This document shows, piece by piece, positions 11,291 to 41,043 of a stretch of DNA of 43,174 bases. The position numbers and the translations under genes are program-made. The stretch comes from Devosia equisanguinis. GTDB lineage: Bacteria > Pseudomonadota > Alphaproteobacteria > Rhizobiales > Hyphomicrobiaceae. Positions within the stretch are counted from its first letter, which is position 1; each line of letters begins with the position of its first letter. The stretch spans positions 1 through 43,174 of the forward strand of contig CAMDBL010000010.1 in NCBI GenBank assembly GCA_945889015.1. The letters are read 5' to 3'. Below the pieces are notes generated by a model. That model saw only the letters and a program-made list of their open reading frames with translations. It ran no database searches and was not told the DNA's origin.

Positions 11291-12253
11291 ATGCGTATCG
11301 ACTATCATCGAACTCTCGTCGCCGACGCCGTTCGCAACCGAGCATTCCATGCGGCGCTCGCCGCCGTGATCAAGCCCGGCACGACGGTCGTCGCCGACAT
11401 CGGCGCGGGCACCGGCCTGCTCGGACTGATGGCCGCGCGGCTCGGGGCGCGGGAGGTCTACCTCTACGAGACCGCCGAGGTGGCCGGCGTCGCCGCGGAA
11501 ATCATCAAGCGCAACCGCGTCCGCAATTGCCATGTCATGCCCTGCCATTCGACCGAGATGCAGAAACCACCGCGAGTGGACGTGGTCGTCTCCGAGACGC
11601 TCGGCAATTATCCCTATGAGGAAGACATCATCGAGACGCTCGCCGATGCGCGAGCCAGGTTCCTGAAGCCGGGCGGGACGTTGATCCCTCAGGGGATCAG
11701 GCAGTATGTCGCCCCGGTGGTGAACGCGCGCTTTCATCGCGAGCTCTGCGCCTGGGACGAGATTGCTGGGTGCCTCGGCGGTACGCAGGCCCTGGCCTTG
11801 GATTTCTCGTCAGCCAAGGTGATGAGCTTCAACAACGTCTATGTCCGCTCCATCACGACCGCCGATCTGCTCGATGGCGGCGCCAGCGCCAGGAGCTGGG
11901 ACGCCATCGATTTCATGGCCCGCAATCGAACGTCTCGCCACGGCGAGATCTCCTGGGCCCTCGATGGGGCCGCCACCGTCTATGGTCTGGCCACGTGGTG
12001 GTCGGCCACGCTCGCCCAATCCATCGAACTCTCCACTGCCCCCGATGCAGCCCGCACGCACTGGGAGCAGCTGTATTTTCCGTTGTCGGCGCCGATCTCC
12101 GCCAATCCGGGCGACTTGATCTGCGCCATGCTGCGCTCGCGGTCGTCCCGCAACGCCGGTACCCATCTGGCGTGGACCGTGATCCACAACGACCGCCATG
12201 GCCGTCTGATCTCGCGCCAGTCGTACGATCTCGACAAGGGCTATCTTCCCTGA
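11291..12253 (+). CDS. protein arginine methyltransferase-like protein (class I SAM-dependent)
   Basis: A 320-residue soluble protein with the architecture of eukaryotic PRMTs. The SAM-binding motif I is VADIGAGTGLLGLMAA (34-49), with the acidic ribose-binding residue in YLYETAE (Glu60). The double-E loop reads SETLGNYPYEED, with E102 and E111 spaced exactly as the PRMT catalytic glutamates. The C-terminal beta barrel carries YGLATWWSATL (231-241) and a THW loop, RTHWEQLYFPL (255-265), another PRMT signature. Ribosomal-protein L11 methyltransferase, a common automatic label, lacks the THW loop. No strong ribosome binding site precedes the ATG, and GTG/ATG alternatives nearby are not better. 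Substrate unknown. Confidence 0.82.
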   Translation: MRIDYHRTLVADAVRNRAFHAALAAVIKPGTTVVADIGAGTGLLGLMAARLGAREVYLYETAEVAGVAAEIIKRNRVRNCHVMPCHSTEMQKPPRVDVVVSETLGNYPYEEDIIETLADARARFLKPGGTLIPQGIRQYVAPVVNARFHRELCAWDEIAGCLGGTQALALDFSSAKVMSFNNVYVRSITTADLLDGGASARSWDAIDFMARNRTSRHGEISWALDGAATVYGLATWWSATLAQSIELSTAPDAARTHWEQLYFPLSAPISANPGDLICAMLRSRSSRNAGTHLAWTVIHNDRHGRLISRQSYDLDKGYLP

Positions 12254-12278
12254 TCGAAGCGGCAAATCTCTCGACTCA

Positions 12279-12749
12279 CTATCTTCGCCAGTGAGGCGGC
12301 AAGCTGGGGCGTCCGTCCGAGCGCCACCCGTAGCGCCGATCGCCGCGAAACGCCGGCACCGCTGGTCGCCAATCATAGAAGCCATAGTAGGGCATCGGTC
12401 CATAGCCGTAGCGATAGCCGTTTCGCGCGAAGTCGCCCGGGTAGGCCAGGCCATATGGCCGGCTCCACGAAGGCGAGCGCCACCGATATCTCTCCGGCCC
12501 GAGATAGGCCCTCCGGCGCGGCCTCCTCTCACCATAAGCAGGTGACGTATCGCGATAGCGCCACGCGGGCACCGGCGCCTCCCACCTCTCCGGCTGGCGC
12601 AATACGCCGCCGCCGAGCTGGGGGTCGAAATAGCGGACCACCGCCGGTGCGGCCACCGCTGGCGGCTCAGCCGGCTCCGCAGCTTCAGCGACATCGATGG
12701 TGAGCATCATGGCGAGAATGCCGGCCGCCGCCGAACGTGCAAAGATCAT
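12279..12749 (-). CDS. small secreted Arg/Tyr/Pro-rich protein of unknown function
   Basis: A 156-residue protein with a signal peptide (MIFARSAAAGILAMMLTIDV, then AEAAEP, cleavage near residue 24). The mature part is rich in Arg, Tyr, Trp, Pro and Gly (for example RYGYGPMPYYGFYDW) and has no recognisable enzyme motif. Similar basic, aromatic exported proteins are frequent in Rhizobiales but undefined. A sigma70-like promoter at 12798-12826 points at it, which supports it being real despite the biased composition. It converges on the methyltransferase gene with 25 bases between the ends. Confidence 0.7.
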   Translation of the reverse strand: MIFARSAAAGILAMMLTIDVAEAAEPAEPPAVAAPAVVRYFDPQLGGGVLRQPERWEAPVPAWRYRDTSPAYGERRPRRRAYLGPERYRWRSPSWSRPYGLAYPGDFARNGYRYGYGPMPYYGFYDWRPAVPAFRGDRRYGWRSDGRPSLPPHWRR

Positions 12750-12797
12750 GTTACTCCCTCATACGCAGACCCGGTGCGAGGACCACCGTCAAATCTC

Positions 12798-12826
12798 ACT
12801 ATACATACACTTTATGTTCTTGTAAA
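12798..12826 (-). promoter_or_regulatory. sigma70-type promoter for the 12279-12749 gene
   Basis: On the minus strand TTTACA (12821-12826), a 17-base spacer and TATAGT (12798-12803) form a near-consensus promoter, with transcription expected to start near 12790, about 40 bases before the ATG at 12749. The region is markedly AT-rich compared with its surroundings. Confidence 0.65.
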
Positions 12827-12840
12827 GTTCTATTGTATGT
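12803..12840. repeat. nested inverted repeat over the promoter
   Basis: ACATAC-ACTTTA (12803-12814) pairs with TAAAGT (12823-12828) and GTATGT (12835-12840), with an 8-base loop and a 6-base insertion on one side. It overlaps the spacer and -35 of the minus-strand promoter and lies 68 bases past the hydrolase stop. It could be an operator, or a structure ending the hydrolase transcript. Confidence 0.5.
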
Positions 12841-12907
12841 GCCATGAAGAATTCTTCCAGCATTCGGATGCCGGTGGCTTTGAACCTCCGGAGCCGACGA
12901 CGTGATG

Positions 12908-13819
12908 TCAGTCGAGCAGGTGTTGCTTGACGAAGGCTGCGGCGGCCTCGCCCGCACGCGCGAGATGGGATTTTTGGGAGTACAGGCTCATGTGTGAAAC
13001 TCTGGGGATGACGGCCAGCTGTTTGCGGGGCGACGGTATCGAGTGGAAGGCCTCGATCTCCTGGTCCCACAGCGTGATCTCGTCTCCCTCCGCCACCACC
13101 ATGAGAATTGGCGTATTGGTGATCCGGCGGGTGAAGGGGAAGACGGAGTAGTTGAGCAGAAGCTCGGTCGACTCCGTAGTGCTCCAGTGCTGGTGAAGCG
13201 GCGCCTCTCTCGCCTTGATATCGTGAAAAACCTCATGAATCAGAGGGAAGGGCCACGTGGACAGCTCCAGATGCGGCTCGAGGGACGAGAACGCGAATTT
13301 TGCAGATGGAGCCCCTGTCGAACGAGCGCGACGATCTTTGAGGAGCGCCTCCTGCAGGTCGTTGAAGCGCGTCGTGCCGTGGACGCGCCGCATGTTCTCA
13401 TACCCGTCGACAACCGGAATATTGGAGATGATGCATTTGACCCGCGGATCGATCGCCCCGGTGATCAGTACGTGGCCACCGGCGTACGAGATCCCCCAGA
13501 TACCGATCCGTTCGGGATCGACGTCGGCAAGGGTCTCGGCATAGCTGATGGCATTGCGAAAATCCTCGATCTGCTTCCACGGATCGATGTGCTGGCGCGG
13601 TTGCCCCTCGCTCGCGCCCATGCAGCGATAGTCGAACATCAGCACCGCGCAGCCGGCCGCGACGAGCGCATCGGCGTAGTGCGGCATGACGATCTCTTTC
13701 ACGTAGCACCACCCACCGCCCATGATCAGCAACGGCGGCCGAACCACTCCTTCAGGATGGATCAGTGTTCCTCGTACCTTCGCGTCGACGCTTGTGAATT
13801 CGACATCGCGCTTCTTCAT
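12908..13819 (-). CDS. alpha/beta hydrolase (dienelactone-hydrolase-like)
   Basis: A 303-residue cytoplasmic hydrolase. The oxyanion region is IMGGGWCYVK (32-41), the nucleophile elbow GISYAGG places Ser111, and the acid and base of the triad are probably Asp246 (VAEGDEIT) and His276 (RVSHMSLY). The start at 13819 (MKKRDVEF) has GGGAG 8 bases upstream; the frame continues to 14092, but that part runs antisense through the neighbouring gene. It is divergent from the carboxymuconolactone-decarboxylase-like gene with 115 bases between starts, so the two may share control and a degradation pathway. The substrate is not evident. Confidence 0.85.
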   Translation of the reverse strand: MKKRDVEFTSVDAKVRGTLIHPEGVVRPPLLIMGGGWCYVKEIVMPHYADALVAAGCAVLMFDYRCMGASEGQPRQHIDPWKQIEDFRNAISYAETLADVDPERIGIWGISYAGGHVLITGAIDPRVKCIISNIPVVDGYENMRRVHGTTRFNDLQEALLKDRRARSTGAPSAKFAFSSLEPHLELSTWPFPLIHEVFHDIKAREAPLHQHWSTTESTELLLNYSVFPFTRRITNTPILMVVAEGDEITLWDQEIEAFHSIPSPRKQLAVIPRVSHMSLYSQKSHLARAGEAAAAFVKQHLLD

Positions 13820-13934
13820 GACCAAGCTCCCGAATACTGATCCGGCGAATTGATGATCATTGACCGGATGCGTCAAGAGGCCGACCCTGGGCGGGCCTGC
13901 CGGAAGCGCAGGGAGGATGAGATGGGAGAACCTG

Positions 13935-14507
13935 ATGAGCGGTGTAGGAGAAGGACCACGTTTTTCGCAGCTTGAGTTGGATGGCATGAGGCCGGACCAG
14001 AAGGTGGTCGCCGAGAAAATGCTCAGCGGACCGCGGAAAGGCATGAAGGGGCCATTCAATGTTCTGCTGCGACATCCCGAACTCTGCGACAAGGTGCAGG
14101 CGCTCGGAGCGGTGATCCGCTTTCAGAACGAGATTCCAGATCCTCTGAAAGAGATGGCGATCATCATGACAGGGCGCCACTGGACGGCGAGCTACGAATT
14201 TCAGGCGCACCGGCGCATGGCTCTGGAAGCGGGGCTCTCGCCTGCCATTTGCGATGCGATCGCCGAGGGGAAGCGGCCTTCGGCGATGTCGGCCGACGAA
14301 GCGATTATTTACGACTTCTGCTCCGAGTTGTTGGTCACGGGGCAGGTTTCAGATGCGCCATATGAGCAAGTGAAGGCGCGGTGGGGAGAAAAGGGAGTGG
14401 TCGATCTGACGGCGACGGTCGGCTACTACTGCGTGGCTTCACTGGTGCTGAATGTTGCACGCCATCCGCTGCCCGAAGGTGCCGTGGCCTTGAAGCCTCT
14501 GAGCTAG
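13935..14507 (+). CDS. carboxymuconolactone decarboxylase / AhpD-like protein
   Basis: A 190-residue helical protein of the CMD superfamily. The core reads PDPLKEMAIIMTGRHWTASY followed by EFQAHRRMALEAGLSP, with the conserved Glu and the His of the E-x-x-x-H type motif; the AhpD CxxC pair is absent, so peroxidase activity is unlikely. The start at 13935 (MSGVGEG) has GGAG about 6 bases upstream; the frame is open to 13860. Family members take part in protocatechuate or lactone breakdown, or are uncharacterised. The divergent alpha/beta hydrolase suggests a joint catabolic role. Confidence 0.82.
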   Translation: MSGVGEGPRFSQLELDGMRPDQKVVAEKMLSGPRKGMKGPFNVLLRHPELCDKVQALGAVIRFQNEIPDPLKEMAIIMTGRHWTASYEFQAHRRMALEAGLSPAICDAIAEGKRPSAMSADEAIIYDFCSELLVTGQVSDAPYEQVKARWGEKGVVDLTATVGYYCVASLVLNVARHPLPEGAVALKPLS

Positions 14508-14537
14508 GCTCTGCGCCTCGAGTAGCCGCTATGCCGA

Positions 14538-14572
14538 CCGCCTCCCGGTACGTTGCTCGGCCGGTGAGGCGG
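14538..14572 (+). terminator. possible terminator after the CMD-like gene
   Basis: CCGCCTC (14538-14544) pairs with GAGGCGG (14566-14572), with further C/G pairing inside a loop of about 20 bases, 30 bases past the stop. No T run follows. Confidence 0.35.
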
Positions 14573-14660
14573 CCTCGATCCCAGTCGGCGGGTGGGTGCG
14601 CTATGATCGGGCCGGATGCCATCTCGATCTCAGCAATTCCATGTTGTTCTTATTATGTTC

Positions 14661-14689
14661 TTTACATCTTCTGGCATCCAGCGTACACT
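14661..14689 (+). promoter_or_regulatory. sigma70-type promoter for the HTH protein gene
   Basis: TTTACA (14661-14666), a 17-base spacer and TACACT (14684-14689) lie in a local AT-rich stretch. Transcription would begin near 14696, about 30 bases before the ATG at 14725. Confidence 0.55.
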
Positions 14690-14724
14690 GCTCAAACACC
14701 GCGGCGTTTGGGAAGGATCGTGTG

Positions 14725-15207
14725 ATGGCTCGAATTCAGTGGCAGCGTTTCGTCTGGAAAGGTGGCGCAGACGAGTATGCATTCGAGGTCGTGGATGGTG
14801 GGCTGTTCGGCCGTTTGAGCGTCGGTGCGTCACGCGAGGTGACGCTTCCCATGGTGGCCTGGGAGGGGATGCTGGACAGCGTCGCGATGGCGCGCAAGGG
14901 CAAGGCACAGAGTGATCGGATGCAACCGGATCGAGCCTTTGCCAGATGGAGTGATGTCGAGGTCGCGCGGCTGGAGGCGGGCTTCAAGCACGGCCAGACG
15001 ATCGCGCAACTCGCCCGGTCTCACAACCGCAGTCTCGATGCCGTCGAACATCAGTTGGTGAGGCTCGGATTGTGGAACCGGCTGGAGCGGCGAGCAATGT
15101 CGCAGAGCCCGCCTTTTCCGCTGGAGGACGCGTGGAGAGACGAGTTGGCGGCCGAGCAGAACTGGAAGTCGACTGCCGAAGATCAATGTGATCGCGGCGG
15201 CGATTAG
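14725..15207 (+). CDS. small HTH protein with GcrA/Myb-like C-terminus, unknown function
   Basis: A 160-residue protein with two visible parts. Residues 5-58 form a beta-rich segment (FEVVDGGLFGRLSVG, then REVTLPMVAWEGML) that distantly recalls PC4-like single-strand-binding folds, though this is only an impression. Residues 74-117 form an HTH, RWSDVEVARLEAGFKHGQTI and AQLARSHNRSLDAVEHQLVR. Its layout matches the HTH of GcrA encoded 4 kb upstream (W-[TS]-D then a long helix, a G turn, IA.., and a terminal RLGL). The start at 14725 has GGAAGG 8 bases upstream and a promoter at 14661-14689. It converges on the HAD gene with a 15-base gap. Probably a DNA-binding regulator. Confidence 0.7.
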   Translation: MARIQWQRFVWKGGADEYAFEVVDGGLFGRLSVGASREVTLPMVAWEGMLDSVAMARKGKAQSDRMQPDRAFARWSDVEVARLEAGFKHGQTIAQLARSHNRSLDAVEHQLVRLGLWNRLERRAMSQSPPFPLEDAWRDELAAEQNWKSTAEDQCDRGGD

Positions 15208-32735: not shown

Positions 32736-35207
32736 TCACGCCGCGGTTTGAAGGTCGCGCGCGAGCCGGGCCAGGATCGGCGGTAGCGCGTCCGGCGGCA
32801 CCGGCCGGCTGATCAGATAGCCCTGGGCGTGCGAGCAACCGGCGGCCCGTACCATCTCGAGATCGTCGGCGGTCTCGACGCCCTCCGCGACCGTGCCCAT
32901 GCCGAGACTGCGGGCCATGTTGACGATCGCCTGCACGATCGCCACGCAGTTGCTGCGGCCGGCGGCGTCGCGGATGAAGCTCTTGTCGATCTTGAGCCCG
33001 TCGAAGGGAAACCGCCTGAGATAGCTCAACGACGAATAGCCGGTGCCGAAATCGTCGAGCAGCACGATGACGCCGAGGCTGCGCAGCTGATTGAGAACCC
33101 CGAGTACGCCGTCGTTCTCCTGCAACAGCGTGGACTCCGTGATCTCGATGGTCAGGCGGGTGGCCGCCAGCCCCGACTGGGCCAGCGCATCGGTGACGAG
33201 GGCCGCCACGTCCCCGTCCTTGAATTGCGCCGGCGACAGATTGACCGAGACCTTGATGTCCTCCGGCCATCCCGCCGCGATCCGACAGGCGGTGCGGATG
33301 ACCCAGGCTCCGATCTCGCCGATGAGGCCCGCTTCCTCCGCCACCGGAATGAAATCGACGGGCGATACCGTGCCCCGCTCGGGATGGTGCCAGCGTATCA
33401 GCGCTTCGCAGCCGATCACCTTGTCCGAGCGCAGCTCGATCACCGGCTGAAAAACCAGTGCGAGCTGGTCGCTGGCCAGCGCCTGCTTGAGGTCCAGCTC
33501 GAGGCTGCGCCGTGCGAGGAAGCTCTCTTGAATGTCAGGCGTATAGAGACAGGCACGGCCCTTGCCGCTGGCCTTCGCCCGATAAAGCGCGAGGTCGGCA
33601 TTCTTGATCAACTCGTCCGCATCGAGCGCGTCTTGCGGCGCCATCGAGGTGCCGATGCTCGTACCGATCTCGATGGTGTGCTCACCGATCCGGTAGGGCT
33701 TGCTGATCGCGCCGACGAGCCGGCGGGCCAGATCGGACGCCGACTGGGGGCTACCGGCATCGATCTGGACGACGGCGAACTCGTCGCCGCCCAGGCGCGC
33801 GACGGTGTCGGTCGCCCGCACGCTCTTGCTGAGCCGGGCGGCCACGGCCTTGAGCAGGGCATCGCCGACGGGATGTCCGAGTACGTCGTTGACCGCCTTG
33901 AAGCGATCGAGGTCGAGATAGTGCAGCGCAAACGCCGATCCAGCCCGCACACGGTCGAGCTCGCGGTCGAGAACCGCCTTGAGCTCGATCCGGTTGGCGA
34001 GATTGGTCAGGGCGTCGTGGCTGGCCATGTGCGCGATACGACGCGAGGCGGTTTGCTGCGCCGTCACGTCCTCGTGCGTCGCGACCCAGCCGCCGCCGGC
34101 CATGGGAACGCGCGTGACGCAGATCCAGCGACCGTCGCTGTTGCGCAGAACTTCCACGCTCGACTGCGTCACCGGCTTGATCCGCGCCTTGAGGAAATCC
34201 TCCGGCGTCTCTTGATTGAACTGCCCCCGGCGGATGCGATGCTCCAGCAACTGGCGGAAGGTCGTGCCGGGGCGCGCCTCCTCCTCGGTCAGGTCGAACA
34301 GTGCGCGGTAGCGGTGGTTGCAGACGACCAGCCGCTGATCGGCGTCGAACATGCACAGTCCCTGGGACATGTTGTTGATGGCGATGTCGAAATGCTGGTT
34401 CGTCTGCCTCAGCTTGGCCTCGTTCTCCAGCAGCGCGATGGCGTTGGCGCGGAACACCAGCACGGCGCGGGCGATGTCGCCGACCTCGTCGGGCGAGCCT
34501 AGGGATGGAATGGTGACATCGGTGTCGTTGGCCGCGAGCCGCATCATGACGCCTCTCAGACGCCCCAGCCGCGAGACGGTCGAATGCGTGATGGTCATAC
34601 CGACCGGGCCCAAAACAATCATCGTGGCAACGATGCAAACCCAGAACCAGGTATTGATCGAGGCGGCACTCTCCGTCAGCTCGCGCGCCCAGCTCTGGGT
34701 TCTCAGCGTCTGCTGGAGACGGTGCCCAGCGATGAACTCGGCGATGTGCTGGGCGATCGCCGCGTACTGGGATGCCGCGAGCGACGCCTGATCCTGAGCG
34801 TAGTTGGACGCGAACATGAACACGCGCTGGCGGTGGTCGATCAGCATTGGCAGCAGAGGAAGGAGGGTCGCATACAGATCCGGCGCGCCCTTCTGCATCA
34901 AGCTCGCTAGCTGGCCTTCCAGCTCGGCCGCGGCGGCCTGATGCCGATCGAGCTGCTCACGCTCGACCTCGGCCGGGGCGCTCTCCACCAGTCGGCGGTG
35001 CTGCTCCAGCTTGACCTCGAGGTCCGCGGCCGTGGTGATGCCGGTGGCAACGGTGGTGGAGACATGCTGCGACGCCTGGAACGTGATCTCCGAAAGCCGT
35101 AATGCGGGGATCGCCAGCGCCGCCACCGCGGCCAGCGTCAGTCCGGCGACCAGCCACGATCGTGCAGCGATGCCTCGCCGCCAGAAACTCACTACGCTCT
35201 GCTGCAT
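32736..35207 (-). CDS. membrane GGDEF-EAL protein with HAMP and PAS domains
   Basis: An 823-residue cyclic-di-GMP turnover protein. Helices at 16-38 and 186-205 bracket a helical periplasmic sensor domain; then HAMP (about 208-262), PAS (270-385), GGDEF (395-560) and EAL (570-815). The diguanylate cyclase site is intact (RLGGDEFAV, 471-479), with an RxxD inhibitory site five residues earlier (R464-D467). The phosphodiesterase site looks intact (CEALIRWHHPE, and DDFGTGYSSLSYL). Both activities are thus possible. It begins 31 bases after the PstS-like gene on the same strand, so the binding protein probably feeds its periplasmic sensor. Confidence 0.93.
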   Translation of the reverse strand: MQQSVVSFWRRGIAARSWLVAGLTLAAVAALAIPALRLSEITFQASQHVSTTVATGITTAADLEVKLEQHRRLVESAPAEVEREQLDRHQAAAAELEGQLASLMQKGAPDLYATLLPLLPMLIDHRQRVFMFASNYAQDQASLAASQYAAIAQHIAEFIAGHRLQQTLRTQSWARELTESAASINTWFWVCIVATMIVLGPVGMTITHSTVSRLGRLRGVMMRLAANDTDVTIPSLGSPDEVGDIARAVLVFRANAIALLENEAKLRQTNQHFDIAINNMSQGLCMFDADQRLVVCNHRYRALFDLTEEEARPGTTFRQLLEHRIRRGQFNQETPEDFLKARIKPVTQSSVEVLRNSDGRWICVTRVPMAGGGWVATHEDVTAQQTASRRIAHMASHDALTNLANRIELKAVLDRELDRVRAGSAFALHYLDLDRFKAVNDVLGHPVGDALLKAVAARLSKSVRATDTVARLGGDEFAVVQIDAGSPQSASDLARRLVGAISKPYRIGEHTIEIGTSIGTSMAPQDALDADELIKNADLALYRAKASGKGRACLYTPDIQESFLARRSLELDLKQALASDQLALVFQPVIELRSDKVIGCEALIRWHHPERGTVSPVDFIPVAEEAGLIGEIGAWVIRTACRIAAGWPEDIKVSVNLSPAQFKDGDVAALVTDALAQSGLAATRLTIEITESTLLQENDGVLGVLNQLRSLGVIVLLDDFGTGYSSLSYLRRFPFDGLKIDKSFIRDAAGRSNCVAIVQAIVNMARSLGMGTVAEGVETADDLEMVRAAGCSHAQGYLISRPVPPDALPPILARLARDLQTAA

Positions 35208-35238: not shown

Positions 35239-36093
35239 TCACTTCTCGCTGGTGGCGAGGCGGCGCTGCGCGATGATCCGTGCGGTGTCGATGACAGCCG
35301 TGGCGCGCGAGCTGGGCTTGCCGAGTGACACGAGGTAGAGCTGCTGCTCGATCACCTCCTCGACCTCGAGGTCGATCAGTGCATGGGCTGCGGTGAGCTT
35401 CAACTGACTGAGGCCGAGTGCGGTCGGTTCCTGCGCGACGACCTTGATCACCTGCGCCCCGCTTCCCATTGGCAGCTGGTTGGCGGCCAGGATCGGTCCG
35501 CCGCCGAGAAGGCCGGTCTGGACCGTCTGGGTCACGCCGCCGGAGCGGCTGTAGACGACGCGGATCGGCGCATCGGGACCGCCGAGCGTGCGCCAGCTCG
35601 TGATCTGGCCGGTCAGGATCTTGCGGACGATGTCGAGGCTGGCCTTCTTGACTGGATTGGATGGATGCAGGGCGAACGCCACGCGCGTGGAATCGACCAG
35701 ATGCGCACTGAGCTGAGACAGCTGGTCCTGATTAAACCTGGCGGTGAGGCCGGCGATCTCGGACTCGAGGGAAGACGAGATCATCGCGAGATCCGCACGG
35801 CCTTCGAGCAGAGAGATGAGACCACTCTGCGACTTGTTCGGGATGACCTTCAAAGTCACGCCCGACATCGTCTCGATCACGCGCTGGTAAGGCTCCATGA
35901 GGCGCGAGTTGAACGTTGTTGAGCCCTGAACGACGAGCGTTTCGGCTCGAACCCGATGGGGCGCGAGCAACGTCATCGCGATGACGACGAAAAGCGAAAT
36001 GGAGAGTTTGATGTATCGGACCGGAAATGCGCCAGGGAGCTCGGAGCAATACAGAAAAGAGCAGGGGAAATGGTGCAATGATATTGGTCGCAT
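35239..36093 (-). CDS. PstS-like periplasmic substrate-binding protein
   Basis: A 284-residue exported protein. The hydrophobic leader lies at 28-48 (YIKLSISLFVVIAMTLLAPH), preceded by a long N-terminal region, with the mature part from about residue 51 (ETLVVQGSTTFNSRL). VQGSTTF resembles the phosphate-loop GSST of PstS, and SGLISLLEGRADLAMISSSL plus YSRSGGVTQTV fit the PBP-like fold. No permease or ATPase follows; instead a GGDEF-EAL gene does, so it probably serves sensing rather than transport. The start at 36093 has GGGAG 7 bases upstream; the frame is open to 36285. Confidence 0.8.
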   Translation of the reverse strand: MRPISLHHFPCSFLYCSELPGAFPVRYIKLSISLFVVIAMTLLAPHRVRAETLVVQGSTTFNSRLMEPYQRVIETMSGVTLKVIPNKSQSGLISLLEGRADLAMISSSLESEIAGLTARFNQDQLSQLSAHLVDSTRVAFALHPSNPVKKASLDIVRKILTGQITSWRTLGGPDAPIRVVYSRSGGVTQTVQTGLLGGGPILAANQLPMGSGAQVIKVVAQEPTALGLSQLKLTAAHALIDLEVEEVIEQQLYLVSLGKPSSRATAVIDTARIIAQRRLATSEK

Positions 36094-36480
36094 GGGGTGC
36101 TCCCTGGCGCATGGACGCACCGGACGCAGCGGGCGCCGGGTGATGCGCACGCTCGAACGGAACGATCGGTGGGATGGGAACATGCCGGGCACGGCCGGCT
36201 CACGGATGGCATCATGCCTTCGAGCCGGAGGTGGGTGGGGTGCCGGGGCTCGACCGTGACGACGACAATAAACTGCAGTTATCAATAATGCGTTGAGCGT
36301 CTCAAAACAAATTTTTGCCGGTGTGCTGCATTCTCTCGGCCGACACCGCTCGTTTCAGAATCGATTTGTCTTCGTATTTGCCTGGAACTGCGGCGCCCGC
36401 TTCAGCATGGAATTGAGGGACGGTTGATAGGGTCGTGTTCCAGACGGCCGATGCCCGGCCGGTTATATGAGGAGCTTGGC
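36094..36480. other. 387-base gap between divergent PstS-like and small membrane peptide genes
   Basis: Contains the probable promoter of the PstS-like gene (36278-36305, minus strand) with the palindrome AACTGCAGTT at 36271-36280. The part 36306-36480, before the small membrane peptide, contains TTGATA at about 36424 but no partner hexamer at proper spacing. No gene recognised. Confidence 0.45.
36278..36305 (-). promoter_or_regulatory. possible promoter of the PstS-like/GGDEF-EAL operon
   Basis: On the minus strand TTGAGA (36300-36305), a 16-base spacer and GATAAC (36278-36283). The perfect 10-bp palindrome AACTGCAGTT (36271-36280) overlaps the -10 and likely start point, as an operator would. 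The leader to the ATG at 36093 would be about 175 bases. Confidence 0.35.
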
Positions 36481-36596: not shown

Positions 36597-39500
36597 TCAG
36601 GCCGCAGCTCGCTCGACCGCCTCCCCGGAGGTGGCCGCATCATCGGCTGCATCGCTGGTCACGCCGGCCGTGTCCGGGGGAACGACCTCGATCCTGCCAT
36701 CGGTCTCGAGTGCGATGCGGGCTCCGGGCGAGATCGCCGAGAGATCCTCCACGCCGACGATCATCGCCACGTCGCGCTCGCGCGCGAGCAGCGCCATGTG
36801 ACTGAGCCAGCCGCCGAGCTGGATGACGATGCCGCCGGCGGTCCGGAGGTAGGGAAGCCATGCCGGATGAAACATGCGGGCGACGATGATGTCGCCTGGC
36901 TCGAAGCCCGCGATCGGTAGGCCGCGCTCGGCCTCGGTGTCGCCGACAGGCACAGCGCGGCCGACGGCGCGGCGGGAGCCCGCGACTCGGGTTCCACCGA
37001 GCGTCCCCCTCGCCAGCGGTGAGGCGAGAGTTCCGGCTGCGGCACGCTCGAGCTGAGGCAACGTGAGGCTCGCCTGCGGCGGCCGCCGCCCGGCCCACAG
37101 CTCGCGCGTGAGGCGGCGCTCACCGGCCAGGCGGTTCAGGTCCGCCGACTCCGGCTCGCCGAGCCGCGCCAGCTCCTCGAACGTCAAATGGAACGAGAGG
37201 CCGTCCCATCCCAGGCGCCGGTCGAGCGCCACGATCGCACGCCGCAGCAGCGCCAACTCGCGCAGCGAATGATGCTTGGCATCCTCCTTCAGCGTCTCGA
37301 GTCTACGGGCGCTCTCGACCAGTCCGGCGAGATCGTCCGGCAGCGGAACGGCTCCGGTGTCGTCGCGCTGGTGTGGTGCGCCGATCATGCCGGGCAATGC
37401 CAGCAGGCTCGCCTCGTCCTCGCCGTAGCGCGGCTCCGACAGCTCGTAGTCGAACGCCGCGCGGTGGCCGGCGGCGTCGCGCAGGGCCTCGATCCGCCGT
37501 TGACCGTCGAGGGCTGCCGCGGTCGCAATCCCGGCGGCGATGGTGGTCGGCGGCGCGCCCGAAAGCCAGTGGGCGGCGTCGAGCCCGCGGGAGCCCAGAG
37601 CTTGTGTCGCCTGCGCGACGACGATGCCGGCGGCGATGTTGACGACATCGACGGCGACGTGCGTCTCGTGGAGGAAGCCGTCATGGAGCTTGCCGATCTC
37701 GGTGACGAGCCGCGGCGTCGGCATGCGATCGAAGTCCACCGCCTCGAGCAGCGCCATGCGCTCGATGAACGTCGGCAGGAACGTCTCGCGAAATGTCCTC
37801 TCGATGGCGGGAACGGATCGAACCAGCTTGACCAGGGATCTGCGGGTGACAGTGGGTGCGCGGCGCCGGGCTTCGATCTTGTCGACGTAGAGCCGGCCGG
37901 CGATCGTGGTCAGATAACTCGCCTGTTCCTCATCGACCCGGTAGCCGAGGCCGAGCCGGCGACAGGCGAGGTCGACGCTGCCGCCGCTCGACCACATCGC
38001 CTCCATCAGTGACAGTGACAGCGTCGTCGGTCGCGGCAACTGCTCGGACATCTCGTTCTGCTGGAACAGGATCGCATCGGCACCCGCCTCGCGAGCCATC
38101 CCGGCGCCGCGCCCCAGGATGCGGCTCCAGTCGGCCTGCAGCAGCCGCTCGTCGTCGTCGCGGCTCATGAGGCTGGTGATGTCGCGGCTCTGCACGATGT
38201 GAAAGCCATCATTCGTCCAGGTCCATTCGATGTCTTGCGGCGCGCCGAACATCCTTTCGGCCCGCCTTCCGACCTCGAGCAGCGCCGAAAGCTCGATTGG
38301 AGCCGCCGCATCCCCGCCGAGTGGTGTCTGCGAATATCGCCCGAAACGAAACGTACCTGGCAGCGCGCGACCCGAGACGAGCGCATCCGCGTCCCCGTCG
38401 ACCATCTCGACCAGCGCGGCGGCCGGTGAGAGCGGATCGCGCGTGAACAGAACGCCGGCATGCCGCGCGGATATCATCTGCTGAAGGATGATATTGCCGT
38501 CGCTCGGTGCCATGTCGTAGCTCGCGGCACGCTCGGCCGTGAACGATGCGGCGACCCGGCCGACGGCGGCCTCGAGCCCGGCGCGGTCGACATGCAACTC
38601 ACTGTCGAATACGCCGGCGAAACTGTGTACGGCCCCGTCCTCGGCGGCGGCCGAGCTGCGCACGGCAAGTGGCTGCCGTCCGAGCCGGCGCCACAGCCTG
38701 TCGAGAGTACGGCGCCGCTGACGTTGTGTGGCCGTGGCGAAGCGCTCGAGGAAGGGCGCGGTCAACACGATGCCCGCCGGCACGCCGATGCCCGCACTTT
38801 GCAGACGGGCGAGACGGTAGGCCTTGTTGCCCGCGCCGGCGAGACGCTCGGCGTCGCGCAGCGAGACGACGCCGGCAGGGAGGCCCCACTGCAGGCGGCG
38901 CCGATGGAGCCAGCGGACGGGTGCTGCCAGAAAGCTGAGGTCGGCGGTGATCAAGGTGCGTTGGAGCAGCAGCAACGCGGCACTCGCGACGAGATAGATG
39001 TCGGCAGCCGCCGAGAGGAGCGCCGCCGCGGTCGTCATCGCAGCGAGCCCGAGGGTCCAGACGATCATGCGGTGGCGCTGCGTCTCGGCGAGGCTGACGT
39101 GCAGATAGATGGCGATCAGAATACCGAACAGCAGCGGCAGCAGCAGTGTCTCGTCGCGGGTGTCGAGGCTTTCCATCCACCACAGCGCCTGGGGCAACTC
39201 GCCCGCGAGGCGGTGGACGCTGGCGATGGCGAGCGTCATGATCGGAAGGAACAGCAGCGCCAGCAGGTTGCGGCCCGGCGTCAGTCCATGACGGCGATAG
39301 AACGCCTGGATCGCCCGCATGCGGCGCGGCGGATCGGCCGCGAGGCGGGACTTCAAGAGATCGAGCTCCGCGGTCAGCCTCCGGCTCGCGATCTGGTCGC
39401 GCTCCGCCTTCAACGACAGCGGCAGGATCAGCAGCCGCGAGAGCAACGCGACGAACAGGATCGCCCAGGGGAAGCCGGTTTCGCGGGCGAGGGTTGCGAG

Positions 39501-40703
39501 GGTCGGCGTGGTGTGGTCGAGGGCCTTGTCCCAGAGACTGCGCTGGCTCTGCGCGATCCAGGCCTCGACGTGCGGCGGGCGGCCGGACGGAATGAAATAC
39601 TCCCACGGCACCGTATAGCGGCCGCGGAAGTCGTGGCCGGCGCGGGTCAGCTCGAGGCCGATCACCTCGCCGAAGAAGCAGCTTCGGCGGTCGTAGCAGG
39701 GCGCCACGATCGGCCGTCTGGGCAGGCTCGCGATCCTCTCCTTGATCGCGGCGGTGGTCATGCGGCGCATCGGGAAGTTGACGGCGCCGGGGAGATGGCC
39801 GGTCGCGAACTCGCCGGGATAGCGCATGTCGACGAACAGCACATTGTCGGTGCGGACGAGGTCGTGCACCTGCGCCGTATCGAGCAGCGTATTTTGGTTG
39901 GGATACGACTGTATGGCGCGCAGTTCGTCGAGCGTGCGGTCCTGCAAGCCGCTCATCGGCCGCTTCTCCACCACCCATTTCTCGAGTCCGCCGATGATGA
40001 ACCGGCAGTCGATCCCCTTCGCGGCCAGCGCGATGCAGTTCTCCGAGCTGCGATTGCCGTTGTGGCAAACCATCAGCGTCGTCTTGCCCTTGAGGTCGAT
40101 GTGCGACATCGGCAGGTCGGGGCCGCGGACGGCGATGGATCCGGGCGGAGCGCCCATCTCGGTCTCGGCGGTCTCGCGGATGTCCAGGATGACGACGTCG
40201 GAGGCGTTCCTCGCTGTTTCGAGGAGGCGCGCGGCCTCCTGCGTCGTGATGCCGAGAGGGTGGCCGGCCTGCTGGCTGAAGGAAAGCTCCTTCAACGTTG
40301 GATCGGGAGTCGGCTGGCCCGGCAGCCGCGATGGTCTCAGCAATGTCGCCTGGAGCCTCGCACTGCGCTCGTTGCGCGCGTCCTGCCACTGGTAGGCATT
40401 GAAGCCGATCGAGACGATGGCTAGCGCGGCGAAGCCGAGTAGGCTCCAGAGCATGACGCGCGAGGATCGCTGCCAGCCGGTGCGGGCGGCGACAGCGGCT
40501 CCACCACCCAGCATCGCGGTCACCAGCGCCACCACCTGCGAAACGCTCGACAGCGAGCCGATCACCAGCTCGGGGGAGGGGATCGCGAGGGCGGGGACCG
40601 CAAGACCAGCCAGCGCGGCCATCACTACAAGGAGGCTCACGCTGAGGCGCGCGGCGGCGTTTCGCCCTGGCACCCGCGCCCGAGCAGGATTATCAACGTG
40701 CAT
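36597..40703 (-). CDS. fusion protein: two rhodanese domains, YidC/Oxa1-like membrane domain, PEP-synthase/Rph-like ATP-dependent phosphotransferase
   Basis: A 1368-residue protein; residue numbers count from the GTG at 40706, one codon before the chosen ATG. N-terminal helices at about 21-42, 54-74 and 84-104. Rhodanese 1 (150-250) has the loop CHNGNRS (Cys214); rhodanese 2 (275-375) has DMRYPGEFATGHLPGAVNF and CYDRRSC (Cys337). Residues 411-590 read like YidC/Oxa1: SRLLILPLSLKAERDQ, a charged hairpin, FYRRHGLTPGRN, LPIM, then four more helices. Residues 615-845 form the ATP-grasp of PEP synthase: GNKAYRLARL, AVRSSAAAEDG, SFAGVFDS, GVLFTRDPLSP, DIEWTWTNDG, IVQSRDIT. Residues 850-1230 are helical and unassigned; 1265-1342 is the swivelling domain with phospho-His1303 in GGWLSHMALLARE. 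No PEP-binding TIM barrel. The substrate is unknown; the ribosome binding site is weak. Confidence 0.85.
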   Translation of the reverse strand: MHVDNPARARVPGRNAAARLSVSLLVVMAALAGLAVPALAIPSPELVIGSLSSVSQVVALVTAMLGGGAAVAARTGWQRSSRVMLWSLLGFAALAIVSIGFNAYQWQDARNERSARLQATLLRPSRLPGQPTPDPTLKELSFSQQAGHPLGITTQEAARLLETARNASDVVILDIRETAETEMGAPPGSIAVRGPDLPMSHIDLKGKTTLMVCHNGNRSSENCIALAAKGIDCRFIIGGLEKWVVEKRPMSGLQDRTLDELRAIQSYPNQNTLLDTAQVHDLVRTDNVLFVDMRYPGEFATGHLPGAVNFPMRRMTTAAIKERIASLPRRPIVAPCYDRRSCFFGEVIGLELTRAGHDFRGRYTVPWEYFIPSGRPPHVEAWIAQSQRSLWDKALDHTTPTLATLARETGFPWAILFVALLSRLLILPLSLKAERDQIASRRLTAELDLLKSRLAADPPRRMRAIQAFYRRHGLTPGRNLLALLFLPIMTLAIASVHRLAGELPQALWWMESLDTRDETLLLPLLFGILIAIYLHVSLAETQRHRMIVWTLGLAAMTTAAALLSAAADIYLVASAALLLLQRTLITADLSFLAAPVRWLHRRRLQWGLPAGVVSLRDAERLAGAGNKAYRLARLQSAGIGVPAGIVLTAPFLERFATATQRQRRRTLDRLWRRLGRQPLAVRSSAAAEDGAVHSFAGVFDSELHVDRAGLEAAVGRVAASFTAERAASYDMAPSDGNIILQQMISARHAGVLFTRDPLSPAAALVEMVDGDADALVSGRALPGTFRFGRYSQTPLGGDAAAPIELSALLEVGRRAERMFGAPQDIEWTWTNDGFHIVQSRDITSLMSRDDDERLLQADWSRILGRGAGMAREAGADAILFQQNEMSEQLPRPTTLSLSLMEAMWSSGGSVDLACRRLGLGYRVDEEQASYLTTIAGRLYVDKIEARRRAPTVTRRSLVKLVRSVPAIERTFRETFLPTFIERMALLEAVDFDRMPTPRLVTEIGKLHDGFLHETHVAVDVVNIAAGIVVAQATQALGSRGLDAAHWLSGAPPTTIAAGIATAAALDGQRRIEALRDAAGHRAAFDYELSEPRYGEDEASLLALPGMIGAPHQRDDTGAVPLPDDLAGLVESARRLETLKEDAKHHSLRELALLRRAIVALDRRLGWDGLSFHLTFEELARLGEPESADLNRLAGERRLTRELWAGRRPPQASLTLPQLERAAAGTLASPLARGTLGGTRVAGSRRAVGRAVPVGDTEAERGLPIAGFEPGDIIVARMFHPAWLPYLRTAGGIVIQLGGWLSHMALLARERDVAMIVGVEDLSAISPGARIALETDGRIEVVPPDTAGVTSDAADDAATSGEAVERAAA

Positions 40704-41043
40704 CACGAATGTATCTCAACTCAAGGTTGTGTAATGTGTCACACTCCTGTCATGAATGGTTCGCGAGCGTCAAGCGGAAGCTGGCTAATGCGCGACGCGC
40801 GCTCCGTCGTCACTCAGTCCGCGGACTCCCGATCACCGTCCTGTGGACAGCCGAGCACTGCCGACCCAGCAGATGTCGGACGAGTGACGACTGCGACTTT
40901 CGTCTAGAGCCTCCGAACGCATCGAAGTGGCGAATCCTTGGGCAGGCGGCTTGACGCCTGGGCGAAAGCCTGTGAGCCTTGGCATAGTAGGTCCGCCAAA
41001 AAAACATGCCTGGAAAGGGCGGCGGATCAAGGGAGGATACAGA
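40704..41043. other. 340-base divergent gap upstream of the ABC transporter operon
   Basis: Between the divergent fusion-protein and ABC ATPase genes. It holds GTGT-C-ACAC (40736-40744) and a perfect inverted repeat CAGGCG-6-CGCCTG (40943-40960) whose loop and right arm include TTGACG, a possible -35 without a partner at normal spacing. These could be operators of a sugar-responsive regulator. No gene recognised; the start at 41044 rests on a good GGGAGG. Confidence 0.4.

Follow-up and report, generated by a model that had tools for sequence, protein, structure and literature searches.

Small-molecule dikinases have been described as a large and mostly unexplored group of enzymes (PMC4844700, PMC12167813). 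For the rifampin phosphotransferase Rph, it has been reported that Lys22 and Arg117 position the ATP, that His825 carries the phosphate and that Arg666 and Glu667 serve the second transfer (PMC4844700), and for the homologous dikinase HpeHI the authors suggest that phosphorylation prevents a diffusing substrate from leaving the cell (PMC12167813). Rph (PDB 5hv1 and 5fbs) and the dikinases PigC/RedH, HpeHI and PpsAB have the same engine, i.e. an ATP-grasp domain, a substrate domain and a C-terminal swivel domain with the histidine. Here, we describe a protein encoded in a stretch of 43,174 nucleotides from Devosia equisanguinis (GenBank assembly GCA_945889015.1, contig CAMDBL010000010.1, positions 1 to 43,174; the window) that contains this engine and that, unlike these enzymes, joins it to membrane and rhodanese domains: According to domain searches and structural models, an Rph-type dikinase is attached to the end of a YidC/Oxa1-type domain, and two rhodaneses precede the latter. 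Each of the domains is known; their combination is a conserved and apparently unstudied membrane-bound variant of the small-molecule dikinases, and our searches of the open-access literature, preprints excluded, turned up no description of a protein combining YidC, rhodanese and dikinase domains. The family ties a dikinase to the membrane via a YidC fold and rhodaneses that are predicted to be periplasmic; this hints at a novel uptake-and-trapping route for molecules or else at a new function of the YidC fold.

The complete fusion gene lies on the minus strand in a frame that is open over positions 36597..40706: the stop codon is at 36597-36599, and translation from the ATG at 40703 yields 1368 amino acids. 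An alternative GTG at 40706 is located one codon 5' of this ATG; we count residues from the ATG, and a preliminary description of this DNA counted from the GTG, so that its Cys214, Cys337 and His1303 are Cys213, Cys336 and His1302 here. That description had read the order rhodanese-rhodanese-YidC/Oxa1-ATP-grasp-swivel from the DNA and had proposed domain searches, structure prediction and a survey of genomes as checks. All of these bear the order out: In a Pfam search of the fusion protein of the window, all four expected families exceeded their curated cut-offs, i.e. Rhodanese (1.6e-17; two stretches, with coordinates 161-244 given for the first), the YidC family 60KD_IMP (residues 413-586; 48.7 bits, cut-off 35), PPDK_N (1e-24) and PEP-utilizers (1.3e-14). 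The models match the YidC and Rph folds, and the order recurs in other genomes. A search for related loci returned 26 of them: 22 (L002-L023) align with the N-terminal parts too, over the same parts and in the same order as the fusion of the window, four of these (L009, L015, L017 and L022) being truncated at the end of their contig; the remaining four loci match in the dikinase part alone. The window and L002-L023 make up the family of 23 loci considered below, for which residue counts refer to the members covering each position.

The fusion is also present on plasmids. In PLSDB, 81 of the 72,556 plasmid records contain a match that covers at least 80% of the fusion, and complete plasmids are among them. 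The N-terminal 581 residues alone retrieve 83 records, from Phaeobacter (59), Leisingera (17), Tritonibacter (3), Parasedimentitalea (2), Ruegeria (1) and Deinococcus (1, with a match over 20% of this query only); many of the records are strains of a single species and not independent of each other. The fusion thus occurs in the culturable Phaeobacter, Leisingera and Tritonibacter. Among the matches listed, nearly all are annotated as PEP/pyruvate-binding domain-containing protein and one as rhodanese-like domain-containing protein. The family is rare overall: it was detected in two of 385 genomes of the class (E 1e-60) and in three of 398 genomes of the phylum (E 1e-25), the source genome being counted in both cases. 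The divergence of the five parts of the protein is correlated (r 0.57-0.81 for 19 of the 23 proteins, i.e. all but the four truncated ones), which is what joint inheritance of the parts would produce. By mean pair identity, the rhodaneses (0.54 and 0.57) are the most conserved parts, followed by the YidC domain (0.41) and the substrate domain (0.35); the rhodaneses are therefore hardly passive linkers.

The C-terminal part is predicted to be an Rph-type small-molecule dikinase that would convert ATP to AMP and Pi via His1302. The model of the C-terminal 760 residues (mean predicted local distance difference test score, pLDDT, 86.3; predicted template-modelling score, pTM, 0.84) matches Rph over 645 residues (Z 22.2) with a root-mean-square deviation (rmsd) of 11.4 Å, which we attribute to a swing of the domains since the ATP-grasp domain alone (residues 612-850; 38154..38870; Lys627, Arg682 and Glu826) superposes at 3.0 Å over 227 residues (Z 21.2). 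For PEP synthase (2ols; 22.3) and PPDK (1dik; 21.8), the Z values are on a par with that of Rph, but these matches span far fewer residues (233 and 218, respectively) and fall into the ATP-grasp part. As in Rph, the ATP-grasp domain is followed by the substrate-binding domain (residues 851-1240; 36984..38153; motifs GHRxxxDYE and KExxKH) and finally by the swivel phospho-histidine domain (residues 1241-1342; 36678..36983), and Pfam detected no PEP-binding barrel in the fusion protein up to an E value of 1. The preliminary description had spoken of a PEP synthase, a label that the Rph-like order and the missing barrel match make inappropriate. Its other statements on this part are supported: The nucleotide-binding residues of the ATP-grasp domain are intact, with Lys22 and Arg117 of Rph corresponding to Lys627 and Arg682 (23/23 each), the phospho-histidine aligns with Rph His825 in all 21 covering sequences, and the substrate site that had been placed at residues 850-1230 falls into the region whose model, and to some extent whose sequence, matches the substrate-binding domain of Rph. 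The phosphate-contacting residues Arg666-Glu667/Lys670 of Rph align with Lys1139-Glu1140/Lys1143, so that the Arg-Glu pair of the second site is replaced by Lys-Glu in the fusion family, a conservative exchange of arginine for lysine (Lys1139 in 21/21 and Glu1140 in 19/21 covering sequences). The rifampin contacts Gln336 and Gln337 apparently correspond to Gly907 and Gly908, as judged by a low-scoring profile alignment (-1.3 bits) whose edge was extended by five residues; the substrate of the fusion is thus likely to differ from rifampin. In a tree of 32 dikinase sequences, which has no characterised Rph sequence, the fusion family (13 of the 23 members) forms one clade (100/100) on a long stem; L061, a PPS-type protein with another domain order, and four of the PlsY fusions described below (L072, L075, L076 and the partial L025) were left out.

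In the model of the N-terminal part (pLDDT 83.1, pTM 0.56), a hairpin of helices precedes two folds of the rhodanese type and the YidC core. For the YidC/Oxa1-type membrane domain (residues 405-590; 38934..39491), similarity to YidC had been named beforehand as a point on which the initial reading could fall, and it stands: in addition to the Pfam score, fold comparison with YidC gave a Z of 17.5 at 3.2 Å over 196 residues, and the family profile matches YidC sequences of the PDB at 5e-16. The fusion has in common with the YidC/Oxa1 insertases the fold, the predicted orientation and the arginine of the groove: Arg423 is the equivalent of E. coli YidC Arg366 and is present in 23/23 members; the preliminary description had already pointed out a first helix with an arginine. 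In contrast to these insertases, two rhodaneses replace the periplasmic domain, the NPLGG motif of E. coli YidC is changed to TPxRN, and K432, D436 and Q437 (the KxxxDQ motif) as well as R478-N479 are each conserved in 23/23 members and absent from E. coli YidC; these residues lie at the cytosolic mouth of the groove, and we infer that they face the dikinase. Moreover, the fusion scores 42.9 bits with the NCBIfam YidC model TIGR03592, below the cut-off of 84.3. The source genome encodes an ordinary YidC (contig C15), which scores 207 bits as compared to 54 bits for the fusion, and a second PPDK_N protein; the fusion is thus an extra, divergent copy.

The charges of the loops suggest how the protein is placed in the membrane. 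The mean numbers of Lys+Arg and Asp+Glu are 5.4 and 1.2 in the N-terminal tail (17 sequences), 4.2 and 0.3 in the first loop, that of the hairpin (20 sequences), and, in 23 sequences each, 11.1 and 5.6 in the C1 loop of YidC, 1.3 and 3.3 in the loop 497-520, 2.7 and 0.1 in the loop 539-549, and 3.3 and 0.4 after the last helix. Accordingly, the N-terminal tail, the hairpin loop, the C1 loop, the loop around residue 545 and the segment that follows the last helix are predicted to be cytosolic and the loop 497-520 to be outside, in agreement with the orientation of YidC. With this topology, the rhodaneses would be periplasmic and occupy the position that the periplasmic domain has in YidC, and the dikinase would be cytosolic. 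The protein starts with a signal-peptide-like helix that ends in A-L-A before the motif IPSPEL and is followed by the two-helix membrane hairpin (residues 20-110; 40374..40646, minus strand as all domains of the fusion). Judged by eye, the Ala-x-Ala looks like a signal-peptidase site. IPSPEL itself occupies residues 41-46 (40566-40583, minus strand), right after the helix; A-I-P-S-P is invariant in the 21 covering members, and E-L is nearly so. In the 372 class genomes and 103 family genomes searched, the hairpin was found in no non-fusion protein apart from two deletion remnants: the class search gave two matches, both in fusion frames, one of them that of the window, and the family search gave matches in eight genomes, six in frames of more than 1300 amino acids (including the window's own) and two in the remnants.

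Both rhodanese loops carry the cysteines that had been noticed initially. Rhodanese 1 (residues 151-250; 39954..40253; loop C213-H-N-G-N-R218) superposes on known folds at 1.7 Å over 99 residues (Z 15.2) and has Cys213 in 20 of the 22 covering members; rhodanese 2 (residues 262-380; 39564..39920; loop C336-Y-D-R-R-S-C342) has Cys336 in 23/23. The best three Foldseek entries with tandem rhodaneses match at E values of 4e-8 to 2e-7, with an rmsd of 14-15 Å over both domains. Structure comparison mostly probed rhodanese 1, and the assignment of rhodanese 2 is based on the second Pfam stretch, the tandem matches and sequence similarity over residues 279-333. In tandem sulfurtransferases the second domain is the catalytic one, and the cysteine pattern of the fusion is similar. 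The fusion thus resembles the thiosulfate and mercaptopyruvate sulfurtransferases in having two rhodanese folds in a row with the catalytic cysteine best kept in the second, but it differs from them by the loop CYDRRSC, by its attachment to the membrane and by its predicted periplasmic location.

The fusion gene of the window is followed on the same strand by two genes: 311 bp downstream lies a gene for a PstS-like periplasmic binding protein (PBP_like_2; 35239..36285), and 31 bp further on a gene for a membrane sensor with HAMP, PAS, GGDEF and EAL domains (32736..35207). A phmmer survey within 8 kb of the fusion in the 23 loci, seeded with proteins of L005, L011 and the window at a threshold of E 1e-5, detected a periplasmic binding protein together with a membrane signalling protein adjoining the fusion in 16 of them, in four layouts: downstream on the same strand (7), upstream and divergent (6), downstream and convergent (2), and upstream on the same strand (1). 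Nine loci (the window, L002, L003, L005, L007, L008, L010, L016 and L019) have the PstS-like kind, with GGDEF/EAL proteins (7), a methyl-accepting chemotaxis protein (1) or a cut-off protein (1, L008) as the partner, and seven (L011-L014, L018, L020 and L023) a PhnD/PtxB-like kind together with a histidine kinase. Pfam assigned the partners in the window, in L005 (the chemotaxis protein), in L011 and L014 (hybrid kinases) and in L023 (a plain kinase), and phmmer those of the other loci. Of the seven loci without a sensor pair, six have less than 2.2 kb on one side. In L004, from a Ramlibacter metagenome-assembled genome, other genes take the position of the usual pair (12036-14921, plus strand): 15 bp separate the fusion from an MFS transporter, and a low-molecular-weight phosphatase-like protein and a TctC-type binding protein come next. 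By sequence, the nearest solved relatives of the binding protein of the window are phosphate binders, and those of the L011 protein are phosphite/phosphonate binders (1e-24 to 1e-26). The sensed ligand may thus resemble phosphate, and it would then correspond directly to neither of the substrates considered below, a thiol or a lipid. Arsenic sensing was considered and rejected as AioX matched the L011 protein, the only one compared in this way, with an E value of just 0.001. The PhnD-type binding protein next to a histidine kinase is common to the seven loci and the three-component anion sensors AioXSR and ArrXSR as described in PMC5908839; however, the enzyme linked to it in the fusion loci is no arsenic oxidase or reductase, and the pair of the window consists of a PstS-like and a GGDEF/EAL protein, without a kinase.

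How can these parts work together? The preliminary description, which included neither the predicted topology nor the linked genes, had suggested a membrane-anchored enzyme whose hydrophobic or thiol-bearing substrate would be held by the YidC-like domain, a role that is still conjectural. We tentatively favour the idea that the fusion spans the membrane as a small-molecule dikinase: a substrate from the periplasm would pass through the YidC-like groove and be trapped inside by phosphorylation, as an extension of the retention proposed for HpeHI. Rhodanese 2 with its invariant Cys336 would pick up or release a periplasmic substrate that bears a thiol or sulfane sulfur, or a similar one; the groove with Arg423 would offer the substrate, or a lipid-soluble form of it, a path to the cytosolic face; and the Rph-type domain would use ATP, via phospho-His1302, to phosphorylate the substrate and thus keep it inside (vectorial phosphorylation). 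The adjoining binding protein and membrane signalling protein would sense an anion-like external ligand and switch the system or the behaviour of the cell. Several observations weigh against this proposal: YidC is an insertase, and we know of neither a small-molecule conduit of this fold nor a precedent for the passage step. The cysteine of rhodanese 1 is missing from two of the 22 covering proteins. PDB comparisons were made for two of the binding proteins, and these look like binders of phosphate and of phosphite/phosphonate rather than of sulfur compounds; what is sensed may thus be unrelated to a thiol substrate. Finally, no sensor pair was found in L004 although its sequence extends for about 7.9 kb to either side of the fusion, and the 16 loci with the pair include several close relatives, which are not independent. 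A bolder version, which we regard as doubtful, is that of a single-polypeptide group translocator in which a periplasmic sulfurtransferase, a YidC-fold conduit and a cytosolic dikinase handle a sulfur-bearing or hydrophobic cargo under the control of a dedicated anion-sensing pair; if true, this would be a vectorial phosphorylation outside the phosphotransferase system (PTS), and the YidC fold would here be employed in transport.

The groove may also serve lipids. A lipid-facing dikinase would bind or flip a lipid, a quinol or a hydrophobic alcohol in the groove and phosphorylate it with the cytosolic domain, the rhodaneses acting as a gating redox or sulfur sensor. The large hydrophobic drug that Rph is reported to phosphorylate (PMC4844700) agrees with such a substrate, as does a separate cyanobacterial family in which the same kind of dikinase is joined to PlsY and which indicates that this engine gets recruited to membrane proteins. 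However, the PlsY-fused clade is separate in the tree and has altered second-site residues, so that the two families need not have a substrate in common, and the best-conserved parts of the fusion are the rhodaneses rather than the groove. A lipid substrate is thus conceivable but less plausible to us than the trapping of a periplasmic small molecule.

The YidC domain and its groove arginine suggest yet another role, that of a factor in membrane protein biogenesis: the fusion would be a paralogue of YidC, with the rhodaneses and phosphoryl transfer regulating insertion, comparable to the pair of YidC and YibN in E. coli, where YibN, a rhodanese, is reported as an interaction partner of YidC (PMC12282094). 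We consider this unlikely. The rhodanese of YibN is predicted to be cytosolic and those of the fusion periplasmic, a difference that set the analogy back as an explanation; moreover, NPLGG is replaced by TPxRN, K432, D436 and Q437 are not found in E. coli YidC, the genome already has an ordinary YidC, and a complete dikinase with its substrate domain exceeds what a regulator needs. Still less probable is a signal relay, in which the phospho-histidine domain exchanges phosphate with the adjoining sensors and the fusion would act as a receptor, not as an enzyme of metabolism. The linked histidine kinases or GGDEF-EAL proteins and the resemblance of the swivel domain to enzyme I of the PTS (Z 12.1-14.6 in five rows among the matches listed) are in line with it, but the full Rph-like substrate domain is retained, and the type of the signalling partner varies between the loci, which is hard to reconcile with a direct exchange of phosphate between the two proteins. 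Finally, a chance join or an assembly artefact of unrelated genes is vanishingly improbable: even though the assembly that contains the window is a draft in 360 contigs, the same order in 22 further loci and on complete plasmids excludes chance or misassembly, and the correlated divergence of the parts also speaks against it.

The PlsY-like acyltransferases fused to Rph-type dikinases are found in Cyanobacteria (L024:7389-10211 and L025:4446-6323, both plus strand, and L071-L083). PlsY is a membrane enzyme of phospholipid synthesis, and we know of no name for these fusions; the Pfam PlsY domain was confirmed in L024 and L025 only. The fusion of L024, from an Aphanocapsa metagenome-assembled genome, has 940 amino acids, and 89 of the 145 genomes of its class, that of L024 included, match it at E 1e-40 or better, 54 of the 89 end to end in one piece (residues at most 12 to at least 927), some of them with one internal stop. 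The dikinase of these proteins might make the substrate of PlsY, e.g. acyl phosphate or glycerol 3-phosphate. They likewise combine an integral membrane protein with an Rph-type dikinase, but the membrane partner is another one and the second-site residues differ; a link by descent between the fusion family and this lipid synthesis was rejected, as the two form separate clades (each 100/100) and the deeper branch reaches only 93/79. Among the other dikinases, one of Pseudoalteromonas (L059:2507-5155, plus strand) is probably a PigC-type prodigiosin enzyme because it adjoins a PigD gene.

Two further readings were rejected for the fusion, an origin from a phage, for which a single weak PHROG kinase match (E 0.0023) was obtained, and a function in anti-phage defence, as PADLOC gave no match for the fusion or either neighbour. 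The two hairpin remnants point to a loss of the whole cluster. In L031 (1360-2523, plus strand), residues from about 25 to 99 of the fusion are followed 18 bp on by residues 566-804 of the EAL protein, and in L030 (1486-2435, plus strand) residues from about 11 to 176 by residues 680-823. In each case, one deletion seems to have joined the start of the fusion gene to the end of the EAL gene and would thereby have taken out the three genes together; one and the same gene lies just downstream of both remnants and of the intact clusters in L010 and L016. The joined frame of L031 is open over 387 amino acids and may encode a membrane-anchored EAL protein.

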